Of a stretch of DNA of 64,000 bases, positions 812 through 47,327 are shown in pieces. Within the stretch, counting starts at the first letter, position 1. Each line of letters opens with the position of its first letter. The stretch spans positions 310,001-374,000 of the forward strand of contig MCGT01000014.1 of assembly GCA_002104935.1 (NCBI GenBank), read 5' to 3'. The position numbers were made by a program, and so were the translations under genes. The stretch comes from Hesseltinella vesiculosa (Eukaryota; Mucoromycota; Mucoromycetes; Mucorales; Cunninghamellaceae). Below the pieces are notes generated by a model. It saw only the letters and a list, made by a program, of their open reading frames with translations, did not search any database and was not told the DNA's origin.

Positions 812-1566
812 TCAACATGGCTTGCCAATGGCCTGGGTCTTGAAACCAATGGCTTTGAGCTTGGGCATATCGAGCATGAGACGACCGTCAAACAAAAAGG
901 CAGGTTTGTTCATGTCTTGATAGATGCGTTGATAATCCAGAGTTTTGAATTCGTCCCATTCGGTCAAGATGACGACAGCGTCAGCGTCCTTTGCAGCCTC
1001 GTAAGCATCCTTGCAAATGGTCAACTGCTTGCCAACCATAGCACGGTTGTCCAAGACACCAGGTTCAGAGACATCCATCCAGATTTGTTCGTCGGCCACT
1101 TTGGGATCGTAAATTACAACGCGAGCCTGTTCTTGCAACAGGTCCTTGACAACGGTGATGGCGGCTGATTCTCGAGTGTCACCAGTGTCCTTTTTGAAAG
1201 CAAAGCCAAGGACGCAGATCTTCTTGTTGGTGATGGTGTTGAAGAGGGTGGAGAGGATGTTGCTGACAAAGCGTTTCTTTTGGTGCTCGTTCATCAGAAT
1301 GACTTGGTACCAGTAGGCAGCCACTTCGGGCAAGTTCATTTGCTCGGCCAGGTAGACGAGGTTCAGAATGTCCTTTTGGAAGCACGAGCCCCCAAAGCCA
1401 ACCGAGGCTTTCAGAAATTTGCTTCCCAGGCGGCTATCACGACCACAAGCAAAGGCCACCTCGTCCACGTCAGCCCCAGTTGCCTCACAAATCGCTGACA
1501 AGGCATTTACCGACGAGATTCGTTGAGCCAACATGGCATTGGCCGCCTGTGTGAAAAAAGACGGCG

Positions 1567-1604
<38 letters not shown>

Positions 1605-2400
1605 CGTTTCTTACCAACTTGGATAGTTCAGACGACCAGAGATTGGTGGTGATGACTCGTTCTTGTGGCACCCAATGCGTATAAACCTGGGCCAAGGCTT
1701 GTTGCGCACAGATGCCTTCAGGCGTTTGCATGGAGCCAATAAGCACACGATCAGGCTTGAGCAAGTCTTGGATGGCAGTGCCTTCTGCAAGAAATTCGGG
1801 GTTGGACAGGATATCGAAATGCAGATCGGTTGTTGCGTTGGCTTCCAAAATAGCACGCATGCTTTCAGCTGTACGACATGGCACGGTTGATTTTTCCACC
1901 ACAATCTTGGATGACTTTGCTACTTGGGCAATGCGACGGGTGGCGCTTTCCACATAACTACACAGAAAAGATGTCAGACCCCCCCTCACCCTTGCGCTTT
2001 CCAACTCTCTCTCTCTCCTGTCGTTACGCAAGGTCGGCAGCTCGACCAGCACCCACACCAGCTCGCTTGGTAGGTGTATTGACAGACACAAAGATGAGAT
2101 CGGCTTGGTCAATGGCTTGGTCAACTTCAGTGGAGAAGAACAAATTCTTATCACGGCAGGCCATAACAATCTCTTCCAAACCTGGTTCGTAGATTGGCAG
2201 CTCGTCGGAATTCCAAGCAGCAATACGAGCCTCATTCACATCCACAATGGTCACTTTGATTTCGGGACACTTGTAAGCAATCACAGCGCATGTGGGTCCT
2301 CCTACACATGAAAAAAAGGGTGAGAAGAAGAGGCGAAAAGGTCAAGTCACTTGCCAACATAACCAGCACCAATACAGCAAATGGATTTTACTTGAGTCAT
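812..2400 (-). CDS. UDP-glucose 6-dehydrogenase
   Basis: The enzyme oxidises UDP-glucose to UDP-glucuronate with two NAD+, in the cytosol. UDP-glucuronate is the precursor for the glucuronic-acid polymers typical of Mucoromycota walls. The exons, read on the minus strand, are 2400-2355, 2301-2028, 1957-1615 and 1546-812, giving 465 residues, the usual family length. Visible landmarks are the N-terminal Rossmann motif GAGYVGG (residues 11-17), the stretch VSVNTPTK in the NAD domain, and the catalytic loop [10 protein letters not shown] with the nucleophile at Cys276, the same number as in the human enzyme. Intron 1 only restores the conserved VGGPTCAV junction if the donor is GC (GCAAGT) rather than GT. 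Introns 2 and 3 are GT-AG, and intron 3 carries a long T run on the coding strand. The ATG at 2400 opens directly into the Rossmann fold, so the start is well supported. Confidence 0.95.
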
Positions 2401-40328: not shown

Positions 40329-43300
40329 TGAGACTTCACAACAGGTTTAAGTGCTGTAAAAAGTAGAAAATAAGAAAGCAAACAAAACTTTAGTATCCCA
40401 CCAGAAAAGGGAAAGCATCCAATGGTTCTCCTTTTTTTGTCACCATCCTCTCATGTTCTCCTATTTCTTTGTTGCTTCCCTTTTCTTCAGTTGTCTACAT
40501 CCATTACCTATATTTTACTGATGTCGGATGGGGTTTAACCAAGTCGAAACGATTGAAAATAAAAAAAAAGGAGTGAAGAGAAAGCAAGATCCATTTTCAA
40601 CGGCAGCGCGGGGGGTGGGTCATCAGGCACGTGCCTGAGGTTCACTGGTTTTGTTGCGCCCGTGTTTTGTGGAGTAAGCTTTCGATCATGGCAAACACCA
40701 TTTGCAAAATACAATTCATTTGCTTACATATTTCCCATTAGTCTTCCCGCAAAATATCGCTCCCCTATAGAAGTTACGCCTAGTTTAACGAGCTATGTCA
40801 TCAGCCGCAGCAGCCACTCATCGCTTGCCAGTGTTGGCGACAACAATGGACAAGGAGAAAGAGGTGACGAGGATGTCCTCTTTCTCTCTCTCGAAATCTG
40901 GTCACTGCGCATTTCTATCTTTTTTTGTTTACTACGAGATCGACGTTACAGAAACATCAAATGGATCAAACCGGCAACATAGATTTCTGCCTGCGCAGGA
41001 GTTTGTAATAGGGCAGCGTCCGTGACCAAGATCGCTGTGAGAGTCGATTTGAGCCTTTTCACTCCTTTATTTTGACCAGAAAACATCAACCAAGACATGG
41101 TTTTTATGCCATGGCTTTTATACTGCGTCTTCTGTTCTCTGCGATATTATAAATCACCCTTGACTGGAGCTGTCGCTGTTTTTCGCTTCGTCAACACTAG
41201 TAAAAGTAAAATAGGGACGTACAAGCTGTTAGGAAAAAGAAAAGCCGAATCCTAATCTCCTCCCGTTACAGAAAAGAAAGGCAGAGAAGATCAGCATCTG
41301 AAATCAAACAAAATGTTTTTGCCAAGCGCCTTTGGCTTTATCACAGTTTAAAGCCCTTTGCATCCATGTTTGCCAGCACATAAACTAGGCAGTTTGAAGG
41401 TGAAAAGGTCTTTTGATATAAGAGTGAAATATTCCTGGATGACTTCCTCGTTTTCTTTTATTGCAACCTTGATCCTTGAATGACAGCGGTGGTGTGGCTG
41501 CAGTCGGGGCGGGTCATCAGGAGTGTTTAGTAAGGATTTTTCCGAATTGTAGAGGCCTGGGGGCCGACTTCAAGGCGTGCAAGTAACGTGGGTGTGTGGA
41601 TATTCCTGGAGGCGATGCTACTTCTTTGACAAACGATGCAGCATGAAGGAATGGCGTCGGGAGGAGCACGGTTTAAAACGCCGATCTTTCTTTTCCAACG
41701 TTCCATCCAAGAACCTGCACCCCTCCCCGATGTTTTTCATAGCTAGACCAGTCAGATGTCCCTTACTGTAATGTGTATTTTTTGACAATCCGATGTGCCT
41801 GAGAGGAAAGGTTGCTAAACAAAATTATGCAAGCACCTGTTCATGCAGGCAGGATTCACACCCCACGGGATGTGCAAAAAAAAAAAAGTCTCCTTCTAGC
41901 GTCAAGCAAATGAATATTGCAAATTACAAGGGCTATGAGAGCATGAAAGAATGGCAAAGGTACCAGAAAAGCATCTTTCTGCATTACAAGGCAGTGGCCA
42001 TAGCCACCATGAGTAATAATTAACCTCCTGTCAAAACGAGCCCACCCTTTGGAGAGCTTTGGTTTTGCCTCAAAGGGGTGTGGATCAAAGAAGCTTTACT
42101 CAGTGTCACTGTAACTGCAGAGGGGCGTGTTAATACAGAATGGTGCATCACACGAGTGCGGCCGTGTGCAAATGACTTCCCTTGGAAGTGGATCGCCATA
42201 CATTCCAGATCTTCTGAATGGAGCTTGCATTTAGCACCGCATTTGGCGTTGATTTTTTATTTTTTTTGATGGTAAGCTCATTGGTATTTGGTGTTTGCAT
42301 TGACTTCTCCTGGCATTCTGTATGTTCCAACATACTGCGAATGGAGGTCATTCTCACGACATCGTGAAGAGGCGATGCCATGATCTGCAGTATGAATGCA
42401 TTTCTCTGAACCTTTCTCACACATATCATCTCGCGCGTCCCTTTACAAAATGCACTGAAATTGAGAGCCTTCTTAGTGGCCTTCTTGGTACTACTTCTGA
42501 AATACCTAATCTAGCTCCCGCCTCTTCCGTCCCTCAACTGCTCCTCCCCAGTTCCAGATGTAGGCGCTTTTTCCAGAGCTACCTACTTTGAAGTAAATAA
42601 GCATCATATCATTCAAAAAGTGCAAGCATGCAAGTTTGAGGACACTCAGGGATGATCCATCCTGCCTTAATTTTAAAACACCGACAGAAAATGAACCATT
42701 GGTGGCAACACTTTTTCTCAGAGATGCTTCTCACCTATTCCTAATAGCCTAAAAAAAATAGGCTCAGTCGGACAAAGTAGAAAACTAGCTTGCATTTTAC
42801 AAGGCAGGCAGGCTGGCAGGCAGGCTGGCGACCGTGTAGACTACCATTCATCCAACTCTCCCCCTGCAGTCTGGAGAGTCTGTACTTTTAACCATGGTGC
42901 TCATCTACTGCTCTCATACAAAGGTTGGCGTCAATCAGAGGAGGTTGATTTGTTTCGCCCACCCGCATGGCGATTTTCTGGTGACAGCCGCCGTTTAAAG
43001 TCAGCAGTTGCCTATAATTTTTCATGCTCGAGCTTCCACAGCCGCTAGCTTGGGCTGCAAGTACCCTCTGCCCTGATTACATACTAAGTTTTACTGAATC
43101 ATTTACAAGCGTTGGTATCTTCGAAAGTATTGAAGGTCAAGGTGGATTGCAACATTGCTGCACAGAAGGTTATTTAGGAGAGATCACACTTAGAATGCCC
43201 CGCTGTGCGCAATTGATTTTCTGCTGGCAGTGATCGCCAATGCACTGATATCCCTTCCTGGAGTGCATAATACTTCACCTACCTTACTAGAATATTTGTG

Positions 43301-43473
43301 CAGAATCCAGCGTTGTGATCGAAGTTTTTTTTTTTTTTTTCCTGCTCACTTCAGCCATGCATTTGCCCGTAGTTGTGGCCATATTTTACTACGAAAAAAA
43401 AAATATAAAAAGCCTTGTTTTTCATTTTTTCTTTTCCTTTTTTTTCAAGTGATCAAACTTCAAAGTATTTATT
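40329..43473. other. Gene-poor 3.1-kb interval
   Basis: No frame on either strand shows coding character, splice structure or family resemblance. Composition is heterogeneous, with a GCAGGCAGGCTG-type short repeat near 42804-42830 and a few A runs. It may hold old, unrecognisable mobile DNA or non-coding transcripts. The last 80 bp contain the putative TATA box of the secreted-protein gene. Confidence 0.45.
43404..43410 (+). promoter_or_regulatory. TATA box of the Pro-Ala/Arg-Pro secreted protein
   Basis: TATAAAA follows an A run and lies 70 bp upstream of the ATG. It is one of the few clear TATA boxes in the window and suggests a regulated rather than housekeeping promoter. Confidence 0.5.
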
Positions 43474-44358
43474 ATGGTCCGAGTCTTATGGCTATTGGCC
43501 TTTGCATTGGCTGGTCCTGGTATTTTGGCTGCTCCAGGACAAACGAAAGGAGGAGAACTACTGCCAGAAGTTGGTAGCAAAGTCACTTGCAGCAGCAGCA
43601 CATCTGGGTCAGATTGTAGTCGTGTTGGGCTTGCAGAATCGTCAGATTCGGCATCCGCAAAAAGCTTCCTTTTCCGTCCCCCCCGTCGCCGTCCTCGCCG
43701 TCCCCGTCCCCGTCGCCCTCGCCCTAAGCCAGCTCCAGCTCCAGCTCCAGCTCCAGCCCCAGCCCCAGCTCCTGAACCAGCTCCAGCTCCAGCTCCTGAA
43801 CCAGCTCCAGCTCCTGAACCAGCTCCAGCTCCAGCTCCAGCTCCAGCTCCAGCTCCAGCTCCAGCTCCAGCTCCAGCTCCAGCTCCAGCTCCAGCTCCAG
43901 CTCCAGCTCCTGAACCAGCTCCAGCTCCAGCTCCAGCTCCAGCTCCAGCTCCAGCTCCAGCTCCTGAACCTGGTCTTGGAAAACGCTCTCCCCGCCGCTA
44001 TCGCCCTCGCCCTCGCCCTCGCCCTCGACCACGTCCAACTCCAGCTCCAGCCCCAGCCCCAGCTCCAGCTCCTGAACCAGCTCCAGCTCCAGCTCCTGAA
44101 CCAGCTCCAGCTCCTGAACCAGCTCCAGCTCCATGCACTTGCGCGGATCCAGCTCCAGCTCCAGCTCCTGAACCTGGTCTTGGAAAACGCTCTCCCCGCC
44201 GCTATCGCCCTCGCCCTCGCCCTCGCCCTCGGCCACGTCCAACTCCAGCTCCAGCCCCAGCCCCAGCCCCAGTCCCAGCTCCCGAACCAGCCCCCGCTCC
44301 ATGCCCTTGCGCGGCTCCAGCTCCACCCCTTGCTCCAGCCCCAGCCCCGGGTGCGTGA
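43474..44358 (+). CDS. Secreted Pro-Ala / Arg-Pro repeat protein with Kex2-type sites
   Basis: This is an intronless 294-residue protein. Residues 1-19 are a signal peptide (MVRVLWLLAFALAGPGILA), followed by APG. The mature part has Cys39 and Cys48 and then a first Arg-Pro-rich block near 67-87. A long (Pro-Ala)n spacer with PEPAPAP interruptions follows. Twice there is a cassette GLGKRSPRRY followed by five Arg-Pro pairs and Thr-Pro, with Lys-Arg at 170-171 and 238-239. Each is followed by Pro-Ala spacer and a Cys-x-Cys pair (221/223 and 277/279). Lys-Arg is the Kex2/kexin cleavage signal, so the layout resembles fungal Kex2-processed repeat proteins. The Arg-Pro blocks resemble proline-rich antimicrobial peptides of animals. 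It could equally be a wall-spanning or structural secreted protein. No family is recognised. A paralogue lies at 63599-63925. Confidence 0.75.
   Translation: MVRVLWLLAFALAGPGILAAPGQTKGGELLPEVGSKVTCSSSTSGSDCSRVGLAESSDSASAKSFLFRPPRRRPRRPRPRRPRPKPAPAPAPAPAPAPAPEPAPAPAPEPAPAPEPAPAPAPAPAPAPAPAPAPAPAPAPAPAPAPEPAPAPAPAPAPAPAPAPEPGLGKRSPRRYRPRPRPRPRPRPTPAPAPAPAPAPEPAPAPAPEPAPAPEPAPAPCTCADPAPAPAPEPGLGKRSPRRYRPRPRPRPRPRPTPAPAPAPAPVPAPEPAPAPCPCAAPAPPLAPAPAPGA
43969..44267 (+). repeat. 95-bp internal duplication, 204-bp spacing
   Basis: The segments 43969-44063 and 44173-44267 are identical except for one base and are shifted by exactly 68 codons. They carry the Lys-Arg site plus the Arg-Pro run. They sit within a (CCAGCT)n background (43735-44133), indicating growth of the gene by unequal exchange or slippage. 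Confidence 0.95.
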
Positions 44359-45737
44359 CCTGGACAATGATTTTTTTTGTTCGTGATTGATTTTGTTGCC
44401 TTTGAATGTTATATTTCATTAAGATCAATGAACCATCCTATCTATCCAAGCCAAACATCGAATAATAGCAATAATAAACCAATGTGAAATTAAATCATAA
44501 GCAATGACCTTGTTTTACCGATCGGAGCTATTGCCAGGCAGCTCTCCCCCATCTGCTTTTTTTTTAATTTTTTGGTCTGCAATGTTTTTGCTGAGACAAA
44601 AGTGAAATGCTTAGTACAAATGCGAGATCCGTCTTTCGAAAATCATGTTGCTATCGTTAGCGTGATAACTTTTTGTCTAGAATGAAAAATTTCAGGTCTG
44701 AGCTGGAAAAAAGGCTGCGAAGACACGGAGGACAAGAGGGCAGGTTTTTTTTCCGTTGAAGAGTTCGTTGACATGACAGTCATCACGGGAGCAGGCTATA
44801 TACGTATTTTATTGTGAAGAATACAGTACAGGATTTCCACCATCCGTTGGCGGGAATCAGGTTTTTTTTAAGGCCTTGCATACTTTTTTTTTAGCAGGCA
44901 AACCAATCGGACGGACTGATAAATTATTTTCTAACGTTGGTATCGTTTTTATTTTTTTCCTAACTCATTTTCTCTCTCCTTTCCCAGTATCATGACTACG
45001 TCAAGACCTTGCCAGAATGAAACCATCAATCATTGGCTACATACGTCCGGAAGCCGAAGGGCACCATAAAGGTCGACGAGCCGCGTCTCTGACTTTTAAC
45101 AAGGATGTGCGAGAAGATGAAGCAACGATCGTTTACCGAAAAAGGTTTTACATCATGTGCCGCAGACGCCGGTGACCCCATTGCGAACAGAGACCACGTT
45201 AAACACAGCTTGGCTTCTAAAATTTTCGGTGGATGGCGATATGCAAGGCAAGACATCATTTTTTAGGAACCATGTCCTAATATAATGTGCTTATAGATAT
45301 GCTTGATTATATATCATCTCATGAAAAGATTGTTCTTGTTACTTTTAATTATGCTGAATGGACAAAAAGTACAAAGCGCTTCAGAAAAATGCAGTGGCAT
45401 ACTGTACCGGGCTTGAAATTGACCAATGAAACGCATTTTCTGTTTTTGGAATTCTCATCGTTGGTCTCTTCAATGCGATGTAAAAAAATAAATACGGTAA
45501 CAGGGGAGGGACTTTACTTTCTATTAGCTCTACTGTATAAATGTACAGCATACCGGATTTCCACCATCATTTGGCAGCACTCAGAGACTGTATTTCTTTG
45601 AGCTGTGAATAAATATTTTTGATGGATGAACCAATGAGACGTAATACAATACATCAAGTGCGCGTGAAATCATTTTTTAGAGAATGCTTGCCAGTCTTCT
45701 ATCTCTCTCCCTTTTATGAGAGAACTACAATTCTTAA
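44359..45737. other. Gene-poor interval
   Basis: No gene is supported. A pair of similar segments (about 44825-44860 and 45545-45585) shares GGATTTCCACCATC followed by TTGGC. Both are trailed by a CAAACCAAT/GAACCAAT word about 70 bp later, perhaps related ends of an old element. Confidence 0.4.
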
Positions 45738-46446
45738 AGATCATCTGGTGGTTCCCTGGCCAAAATGGCTGGGTTTTAGTTCAAAACGAAAGTGACCAAA
45801 ATTTGACTGGGTAGCCTTCATCCATCGATCTGACTTTTTCATTATTTGAACATTTCCTCAAAATTTCACACCAATCCCATCACTCAAGTGCTGTCGTTTT
45901 TTTTTTTTTTTTTTTTTTTTCCAAAACCAAGAAGGAAAAAGGGGAATTTGGATGGTCTCATTCAATCTCTGCACAATGCCTTCGATTCCTGGCCACGTCC
46001 ATTGGGTAAACAGTGAAAGGCGGTGCCAATGTCAAGTGCGAAGTGATCAAGATAGTAATGACATATCTTCATAAAATGGGGATTTTGGATTTTTGGCTTG
46101 GTTTGGAAGAAGCTGAACCTTTGAATTGTTTGAGGATTGCCCTGTGCGCATCAGCCAGGCATTGTGCGGAGACTGAATGTGCTCATCCAAATCCCTTCAT
46201 TTTTATTTTTTTTTTTTTAAAAAAAAAAGCAATATCTGGGCAGCACTTTTGAGTGATGGTATTGGTGTAAAATTTTGAGGAAATATTCAAATACATGAGT
46301 GATGATGATAATGAAAAAGTCAGATCGATGGGTGAAGGTTGCTCAGCCAAATTTTGATCACTTTCGTTTTGACACCTCCGACTGCCCAGCAAAAAAAACC
46401 GAAAAATCGGCCATTTCCCTCAGGGGTTCGCCAGGCCATCTGATGA
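45738..46446. mobile_element. Fold-back (long inverted-repeat) element
   Basis: The left arm (about 45738-45980) and right arm (about 46159-46446) are diverged reverse complements. Aligned blocks include AAAACGAAAGTGACCAAAAT versus the complement of ATTTTGATCACTTTCGTTTT. Another is ATCCATCGATCTGACTTTTT against AAAAAGTCAGATCGATGGGT. TCTGCACAATGCC pairs with the complement of GGCATTGTGCGGA near the loop. Both arms carry a homopolymer run at the equivalent place. The loop of about 180 bp is non-coding. No transposase is present, so this is a non-autonomous fold-back or MITE-like element. The exact ends and target duplication could not be fixed by eye. A solo arm relic occurs at 31650-31790. Confidence 0.7.
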
Positions 46447-47327
46447 AAACTCAGCAAAAAATGATTAAATATTGCAACTCTCTGAGGCAAACTGGTGAGT
46501 GTTTTTGGCCTAATGAACTAGGCGCTCCCTCTGTTTTCTTTTGTCTAGTGTCCTCACAAGATACAGCGGTGTGACTACGGCCAAGCTTGCGATGATTGTG
46601 AAATTCTTCGCATGTGATTGTTCTTGTTCTTATGGCATAGAAATATGCTACAGGGAAGACCGACAAAGTCAATGTCCCCTTGCACGCCCACAATGAAGGC
46701 ATCCATGTATTCAAGTACCCAATAAGAAGTTTGGTAATGGTAATTCAACAAAAAGATCATACAAAGAAGCAGTTGTAAATAATGACCTTGAATACAGACG
46801 GCATACGACTGCCTCAGTCCAACAATGAACGAAATTCCTTGGCTACATTCGTCGTTGATGGACCACTTCTCTGTCATTGGTTTGTCAAGAGATATCGTCG
46901 GAAATGAATCAAAAAGGTCCATCTTCTGACCATCTCTGTTGCACTTTGACCGCTCACTATTTTTTTTTTCCCCAAACGAAAAGGTCGTTCTCGGGCTTGA
47001 TCAGCACATTAGCACAATACCAAAGCTAACAAACCCTTGCGTGATTATGCGTCATAAAATATAGACTGAAGATAAACACAACAGCCCGTTCTTGCTGTGG
47101 AAAAGCATTGTTTTTTGTTGTGTCACAACTGGATCTGCCAGAATACAGGTGCGGAGCAATGCAAGTGAAACCGGGTCCGCAAGGGCCAGGGCGGAAAAAC
47201 TAAAAATCATGTGAAAACCGATTTTTTTCGTCTTTTCTTTTGAAGCTTGGATTGCTTTTTCTTTCTAACATCCTGTTTCCTTCCCTTCATCGTCCATTCT
47301 TGCGTTCCCATTGCCAGTGTGTTCTCT
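46447..47327. other. Intergenic, upstream of dolichol kinase
   Basis: No gene is recognised. The last 100 bp before 47328 are pyrimidine-rich, as at other starts in this window. Confidence 0.4.

Follow-up and report, generated by a model that had tools for sequence, protein, structure and literature searches.

An ATG-initiated open reading frame on the forward strand of the window (the whole stretch of DNA analysed, 64,000 nucleotides in length) is best read as encoding a precursor that is secreted and functions in the manner of a Kex2-processed repeat protein (KEP), with basic heads binding something anionic. We assign this reading a probability of just under one half. The frame, which requires no intron and ends in a TGA codon (Table 1), was recovered at the position proposed by an earlier sequence-only reading of this DNA, and is probably a translated gene.

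The product is dominated by proline (103 of the 294 residues), alanine (73) and arginine (30). Its N-terminus, MVRVLWLLAFALAGPGILA, followed by APGQ, conforms to a crude signal-peptide rule; of 2706 open ATG starts taken at random, 72 (2.7%) conform as well. Lys-Arg pairs ending at residues 171 and 239 open two cassettes, which share the identical stretch PAPAPAPEPGLGKRSPRRYRPRPRPRPRPRPTPAPAPAPAP and have identical heads, GLGKR being followed by SPRRY(RP)6TP. The putative signal peptide, the positions of the Lys-Arg pairs, the two near-identical cassettes with Lys-Arg before Ser-Pro-Arg-Arg-Tyr and a third Arg-Pro-rich block near the N-terminus had been described in the sequence-only reading and are all found in the translation, the third block corresponding to residues 68-86, where every residue is Arg, Pro or Lys. 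Its count of five Arg-Pro pairs per cassette must be corrected to six (residues 177-188 and 245-256). The DNA of the N-terminal Arg/Pro block is weakly periodic (period 15, 2.5 copies, 82% matches), and about 73 copies of CCAGCT form the array within the frame. Each Pro-Ala tail carries one Cys-x-Cys motif, CTC in the first and CPC in the second, and the only other cysteines are residues 39 and 48. An Rfam scan of positions 42000-46500 returned nothing at the gathering score.

Table 1. Coordinates in the window of the candidate gene, its predicted parts and flanking signals.
Feature	Position	Strand	Basis
TATAAA (43404-43409), pyrimidine-rich block and CAAG (43446-43449), likely core promoter/start region	43404-43449	+	Pattern search
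Candidate gene, 294 aa + TGA	43474-44358	+	ORF translation; no intron needed
Putative signal peptide, residues 1-19, PGILA/APGQ	43474-43530	+	Crude rule
Ser-rich non-repeat region, residues 20-67, Cys 39 and 48	43531-43674	+	Translation
N-terminal Arg/Pro block, residues 68-86	43675-43731	+	Translation
PA/PE stretch 1, residues 87-166	43732-43971	+	Translation, repeat analysis
GLGKR, predicted Kex2 site 1, residues 167-171	43972-43986	+	Translation, Kex2 matrix score
Head 1, SPRRY(RP)6TP, residues 172-190	43987-44043	+	Translation
Tail 1, PA/PE with CTC (44134-44142), residues 191-234	44044-44175	+	Translation
GLGKR, predicted Kex2 site 2, residues 235-239	44176-44190	+	Translation, Kex2 matrix score
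Head 2, SPRRY(RP)6TP, residues 240-258	44191-44247	+	Translation
Tail 2, PA/PE with CPC (44302-44310), residues 259-294	44248-44355	+	Translation
AATAAA, possible polyadenylation signal	44473-44478	+	Sequence; function inferred

Cleavage by kexins is blocked by proline at P1′. Under the Kex2 matrix in Table 1 of PMC2515848, LGKR at both sites scores 0.0315, as against 0.012 for the α-factor site LDKR, while SPRR scores 0.0009, this low value being due to the unfavourable Pro at P3. PRRR in the N-terminal Arg/Pro block scores 0.06, above LGKR, but is followed by Pro at P1′. Only two KR sites are present in the frame, which counts against the KEP-like reading. The same source reports that cleavage was accounted for only in part by the matrix, and that sites cut by Kex2 have fewer positively charged residues in their surroundings than expected; since P3′ and P4′ of both LGKR sites are Arg, this counts against cleavage. 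Serine at P1′ gave the top yield for one reporter in Pichia, and Asn (as read from 'N-luciferase') for another (PMC3777899).

Kex2 cleavage is predicted to yield residues 20-171, 172-239 and 240-294, comprising 152, 68 and 55 amino acids with charges of +7, +5 and +7, respectively; the 68-aa chain would carry +3 once Lys-Arg and Ser-Pro had been trimmed. No dibasic site lies 3′ of the Arg-Pro runs in the frame, and Kex2 would therefore not release short Arg-Pro peptides, for which an additional protease is needed. For the same reason the long PA/PE stretches, which exist as the sequence-only reading had described them, would form the tails of the released chains rather than spacers between peptides. 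Its proposal of Kex2-released Arg-Pro peptides thus holds in part: both the sequence and the protease families of the genome are compatible with a secreted precursor that has two good Kex2 sites, whereas Kex2 alone would not account for short Arg-Pro peptides.

A profile search of the genome located kexin-type P domains (P_proprotein) on contigs 14 and 45, the contig 14 exon also matching Kexin 1ot5 among solved structures (e-value: 1.5e-49). By eye, both kexin-like genes carry subtilase catalytic motifs and a C-terminal membrane segment. The presence of two such genes in one fungus (contigs 14 and 45; L033 and L032) is an observation in its own right, as is the YEFD motif visible in each of their tails. 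DPPIV_N matches were found at three genome loci and Peptidase_S10 gave 56 matches, exons being counted apart; a match to either family does not by itself prove a Ste13 or Kex1 enzyme. PHM, which would amidate GLG-KR, had no match in the genome, and as its control likewise matched nowhere, nothing follows from this.

In the proposed mechanism, the signal peptide, for which there is a good candidate in the sequence, would bring the precursor into the ER, and a kexin would cut after both LGKR sites, as the genes and the quality of the sites suggest. A Kex1-like carboxypeptidase, of a family present in the genome, would trim Lys-Arg, and a Ste13-like dipeptidyl peptidase, whose family is also present, may take off Ser-Pro, in line with the removal of X-Pro dipeptides after Kex2 sites by Ste13-type enzymes (PMC6339444). 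The predicted products are one 152-aa fragment and two chains, 68 and 55 aa long, both of which would consist of a strongly basic RRY(RP)6 head and an extended Pro-Ala(Glu) tail. The heads could bind anionic targets, whether microbial membranes or ribosomes or the wall polymers of the fungus itself; antimicrobial action and the binding of anionic wall polymers may both be options for these products.

The protein may instead belong to the cell wall or matrix, being secreted and left largely uncut or only partly cut, with basic Arg-Pro blocks on stiff Pro-Ala rods binding anionic polymers such as glucuronans and polyphosphate and the CxC motifs possibly serving in crosslinking. The alternation of three basic blocks with PA stretches along the chain and the paired Cys in the tails would suit such a role, as would an exon of the UDP-glucose/GDP-mannose dehydrogenase family in the same window (positions 815-1627, minus strand). 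If this exon encodes a UDP-glucose 6-dehydrogenase, it presumably makes UDP-glucuronate for anionic wall polymers. Both LGKR sites, however, are identical between the cassettes and outscore the α-factor site by the published matrix, and the Pfam scan of the frame recovered 0 families up to E = 1, and hence no known wall domain. We consider a wall or matrix role unlikely, though a serious contender.

Several features, the signal-like start among them, favor a translated gene. The TATAAA, pyrimidine-rich block and CAAG that are situated 24-70 bases upstream of the ATG form a pattern which we take to be linked to fungal promoters. It matched once per strand in the 64 kb, against 0.01 matches expected from 100 order-1 Markov sequences, with the qualification that the pattern was picked post hoc and that these sequences lack the T-runs of the genome. 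The second match belongs to the minus strand and precedes the ATG of an EF-1alpha gene (minus strand, positions 24272-25717 and 26183-26220) by 466-503 bases, a distance that would fit a 5′ UTR intron. The pattern of substitution within the repeats points in the same direction as the upstream signals. In an ungapped comparison of the two cassettes over about 150 nt, nine codons differ, six of them silently, and two of the three non-silent differences reflect an offset of the PE unit. Thirteen of 94 Pro-x codon pairs lie one base from CCAGCT, 11 of these 13 changes being silent and the remaining two being the same Thr in both duplicated cassettes; as ten of the 11 silent changes are the same T-to-C and are clustered, this evidence is mild. 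Codons one repeat unit apart in the PA frame differ 15, 35 and 68 times at positions 1, 2 and 3, respectively, in comparisons that are not independent of one another.

The codon usage tells the other way. Residues 1-69 have a synonymous codon score of -0.19 per codon. Every one of the 108 windows taken from nine local exons scores above this, the 14 windows of EF-1alpha higher still, while 27% of out-of-frame windows score as low. The synonymous score is higher in the +1 frame than in the frame of the candidate gene both in the unique part (-1.0 vs. -12.8) and in the repeat part (76.8 vs. 36.5, with 76.7 in the +2 frame), and the full codon score shows the same tendency in the unique part (7.2 vs. 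-6.3) and overall (165.3 vs. 71.2); poly-Gln in the training exons may be part of the better scores of the +1 frame. In the unique part it is one antisense frame that has the highest synonymous score (2.8). The +1 frame is open throughout, the +2 frame contains 12 stops and an antisense ATG frame extends for 231 aa; since a pure CCAGCT array is free of stops in all frames, openness is little evidence here. It is conceivable that the locus is a CCAGCT/CGCCCT repeat array and no gene, in which case the open frame would be incidental and the signal-like start ahead of it due to chance; a non-coding microsatellite is also what the sequence-only reading had named as its own refutation. The poor codon usage of the unique part, the other open frames with their better scores, and the database results described below, in which no relative was found, though coverage of the lineage is poor, all fit such an array. 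It would leave unexplained the signal-like start with the TATA, CT-block and CAAG directly upstream, the mild silent bias, the preservation of the frame through duplications and non-repeat joints, and the N-terminal Arg/Pro block, the DNA of which is only weakly periodic and yet encodes nothing but Arg, Pro and Lys. On balance a non-coding origin is regarded as rather improbable.

Residues 1-90 gave no match up to E = 10 among 4702 candidates in the protein database, and with residues 158-206 one protein (E = 1.6) was obtained among the matches listed (7996 candidates scored); it carries PRPRPRPRPTPAPAPAPAP but lacks the KR cassette, and was rejected as a relative. The frame itself was not returned by this database, which did return a control protein of the same contig, namely a membrane protein encoded in the window, and this absence favors a non-coding array. 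The control matched only itself among the matches listed (7998 candidates scored). As no relative was returned for the control either and the databases barely cover the lineage, missing relatives mean little.

Within the genome itself, a DNA search, which skips simple repeats, recovered the locus alone. At the protein level four additional matches were obtained, of which three share a single repeat locus on contig 13 and one is on contig 4. The contig 4 match is a short GGGAGT repeat and the contig 13 matches, judged from the locus read there (L003), fall in a long low-complexity repeat; neither was retained as a paralogue. Read by eye on the minus strand, the contig 13 locus (about 151800-152700) opens like a signal peptide and continues as a long Gly-rich repeat. 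An Arg-Pro DNA pattern occurred at 48 places in the genome, seven of them inside the frame, as compared with 84 for the reversed control. Six of 20 fetched loci were translated, L027 and L029 being the same place: in L011, L016, L017 and L027 Gly-Arg runs are encoded by another frame of at least the same length, and in L010 a 73-aa Arg-Pro frame overlaps a 334-aa frame that is probably the real gene. The KR-SPRR pattern occurred at eight places, two inside the frame, against 13 for its control, and the two of the six outside loci that read KRSPR (contigs 14 and 8) did not resemble the frame. These partial searches by DNA, protein and the Arg-Pro and KR-SPRR patterns thus revealed no paralogue in the genome.

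A role as a secreted peptide hormone or pheromone-like signal with the layout of α-factor appears very improbable. The KR followed by X-Pro resembles the Ste13 signature found in KEPs of Rhizophagus irregularis (PMC6339444) and the genome encodes DPPIV-type proteins, but there is only a single X-Pro dipeptide ahead of RRY, the predicted chains are of considerable length and low complexity, and the sexual pheromones of Mucoromycotina are apocarotenoids (PMC6339444), which would tell against a peptide pheromone if the host belongs to that group. Translation of another frame is barely credible, whether of the 231-aa Glu-Leu frame on the antisense strand or, by way of an exon not seen here, of the Gln-Leu frame at +1. 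Both are open, the codon usage of the +1 frame is better and the T-rich tract ending at 43449 could serve as a splice acceptor. However, positions 43475-44356 contain no ATG in the +1 frame, which would have to be entered from an exon further upstream; the start of the antisense frame does not look signal-like by eye, and the silent bias favors the PA frame.

The preferred reading, a secreted precursor working like a KEP, is best set beside the KEPs already described, whose defining features are a signal peptide and repeated units separated by Kex2 sites (PMC7329392, PMC6339444). The frame shares with the proteins of these two surveys (Le Marquer 2019, PMC6339444; Umemura 2020, PMC7329392) a putative signal peptide, repeated units, predicted Kex2 sites between the units and X-Pro after KR. 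It differs in that no more than two of its Kex2 sites are strong, so that weak RR sites must be accepted if a third repeat is to count, and in its predicted chains, which are long and low in complexity. Le Marquer and colleagues require at least three repetitions with KEX2 sites between them (PMC6339444), and Umemura and colleagues at least three tandem repeats, each of at least 8 aa and none over 100 aa, between KR, KK, RK or RR (PMC7329392). Splitting the frame at all dibasic sites gives related pieces of 88, 62 and 51 aa, with identities of 47/60, 35/48 and 44/48 in local alignments; the literal count of three depends on RR sites that score poorly for Kex2 or have Pro at P1′, and the LGKR sites alone delimit two near-identical repeats. 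Of the Ste13 signature (XA or XP after the Kex2 site), one Ser-Pro follows each KR and the dipeptide is not repeated. UstYa (DUF3328), the marker of ustiloxin-type cyclic RiPPs, had no match in the genome, and neither had its control.

A mean of 9.15 KEPs per strain is given for Mucoromycota, and 2560 of 7878 KEPs stand alone without a homologue (PMC7329392), such that an orphan KEP is to be expected if the host belongs to the Mucoromycota. The locus seems to add another case to the many fungal repeat precursors that lack an explanation. In the literature, no fungal Arg-Pro Kex2 precursor was named in the titles and abstract openings of the best 5-20 matches listed per search. The repellent Rep1 of Ustilago maydis is likewise a secreted repeat protein cut by Kex2 (PMC7329392, PMC2515848), but, compared by description only, has ten strongly conserved repeats. 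Closer in theme is KEP type P-4 of Rhizophagus, Diversispora and Trichomonascus, which carries an Apidaecin profile (PMC7329392, Table 2), so that KEPs have already been linked in the literature to proline-rich antimicrobial peptides. These are Kex2 precursors matching the profile of a proline-rich antimicrobial peptide, in part from Mucoromycota; set beside the frame by description only, they differ in being described as rich in Tyr.

Proline-rich antimicrobial peptides (PrAMPs) contain at least 25% Pro and have a net charge of at least +1, with antimicrobial activity and DnaK and/or the 70S ribosome as target being essential (PMC7736402, Box 1). With 41% and 44% Pro, the predicted chains lie within the Pro and charge limits, and it is on composition that an antimicrobial function for them would rest. 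A search of solved structures yielded six matches up to E = 10, led by two weak ones, to poly-PR at E = 0.19 and to cathelicidin-3/Bac7 at E = 2.7. To the animal PrAMP Bac7 (cathelicidin-3) the putative chains would be similar in their RRxRPRP start, PRP motifs, at least 25% Pro and net positive charge, but homology is not detectable (E = 2.7) and the chains carry a long Pro-Ala tail. Peptides of Coprinopsis cinerea KEPs had no activity on five bacterial strains (PMC9769878), and those seen in that source are unrelated to the frame in sequence. As a long shot, the fungus may have independently evolved a multi-copy, Kex2-released PrAMP, in which the RRY(RP)6 head would enter the ribosome tunnel of competitors as Bac7 and poly-PR do, passage through the ER would spare the ribosomes of the producer and the Pro-Ala tail would aid release or wall retention. 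Should the frame be translated and cleaved in the predicted way, the locus would offer an easily tested case for the role of orphan fungal repeat precursors, be it defence, wall building or signalling.

The poly-PR dipeptide repeats of C9ORF72 (PDB 7top) share the Arg-Pro runs, whereas the heads have just six pairs. Long poly-PR blocks ribosome tunnels at 20 repeats, while PR4 at 2 µM caused no inhibition and PR10 was weak on Escherichia coli ribosomes and at 2 µM did not inhibit those of rabbit (PMC9120013); six pairs plus RRY fall between the lengths tested there. If translated and cut as predicted, the products of this fungal precursor would share the Arg-Pro chemistry of ribosome-blocking animal peptides.
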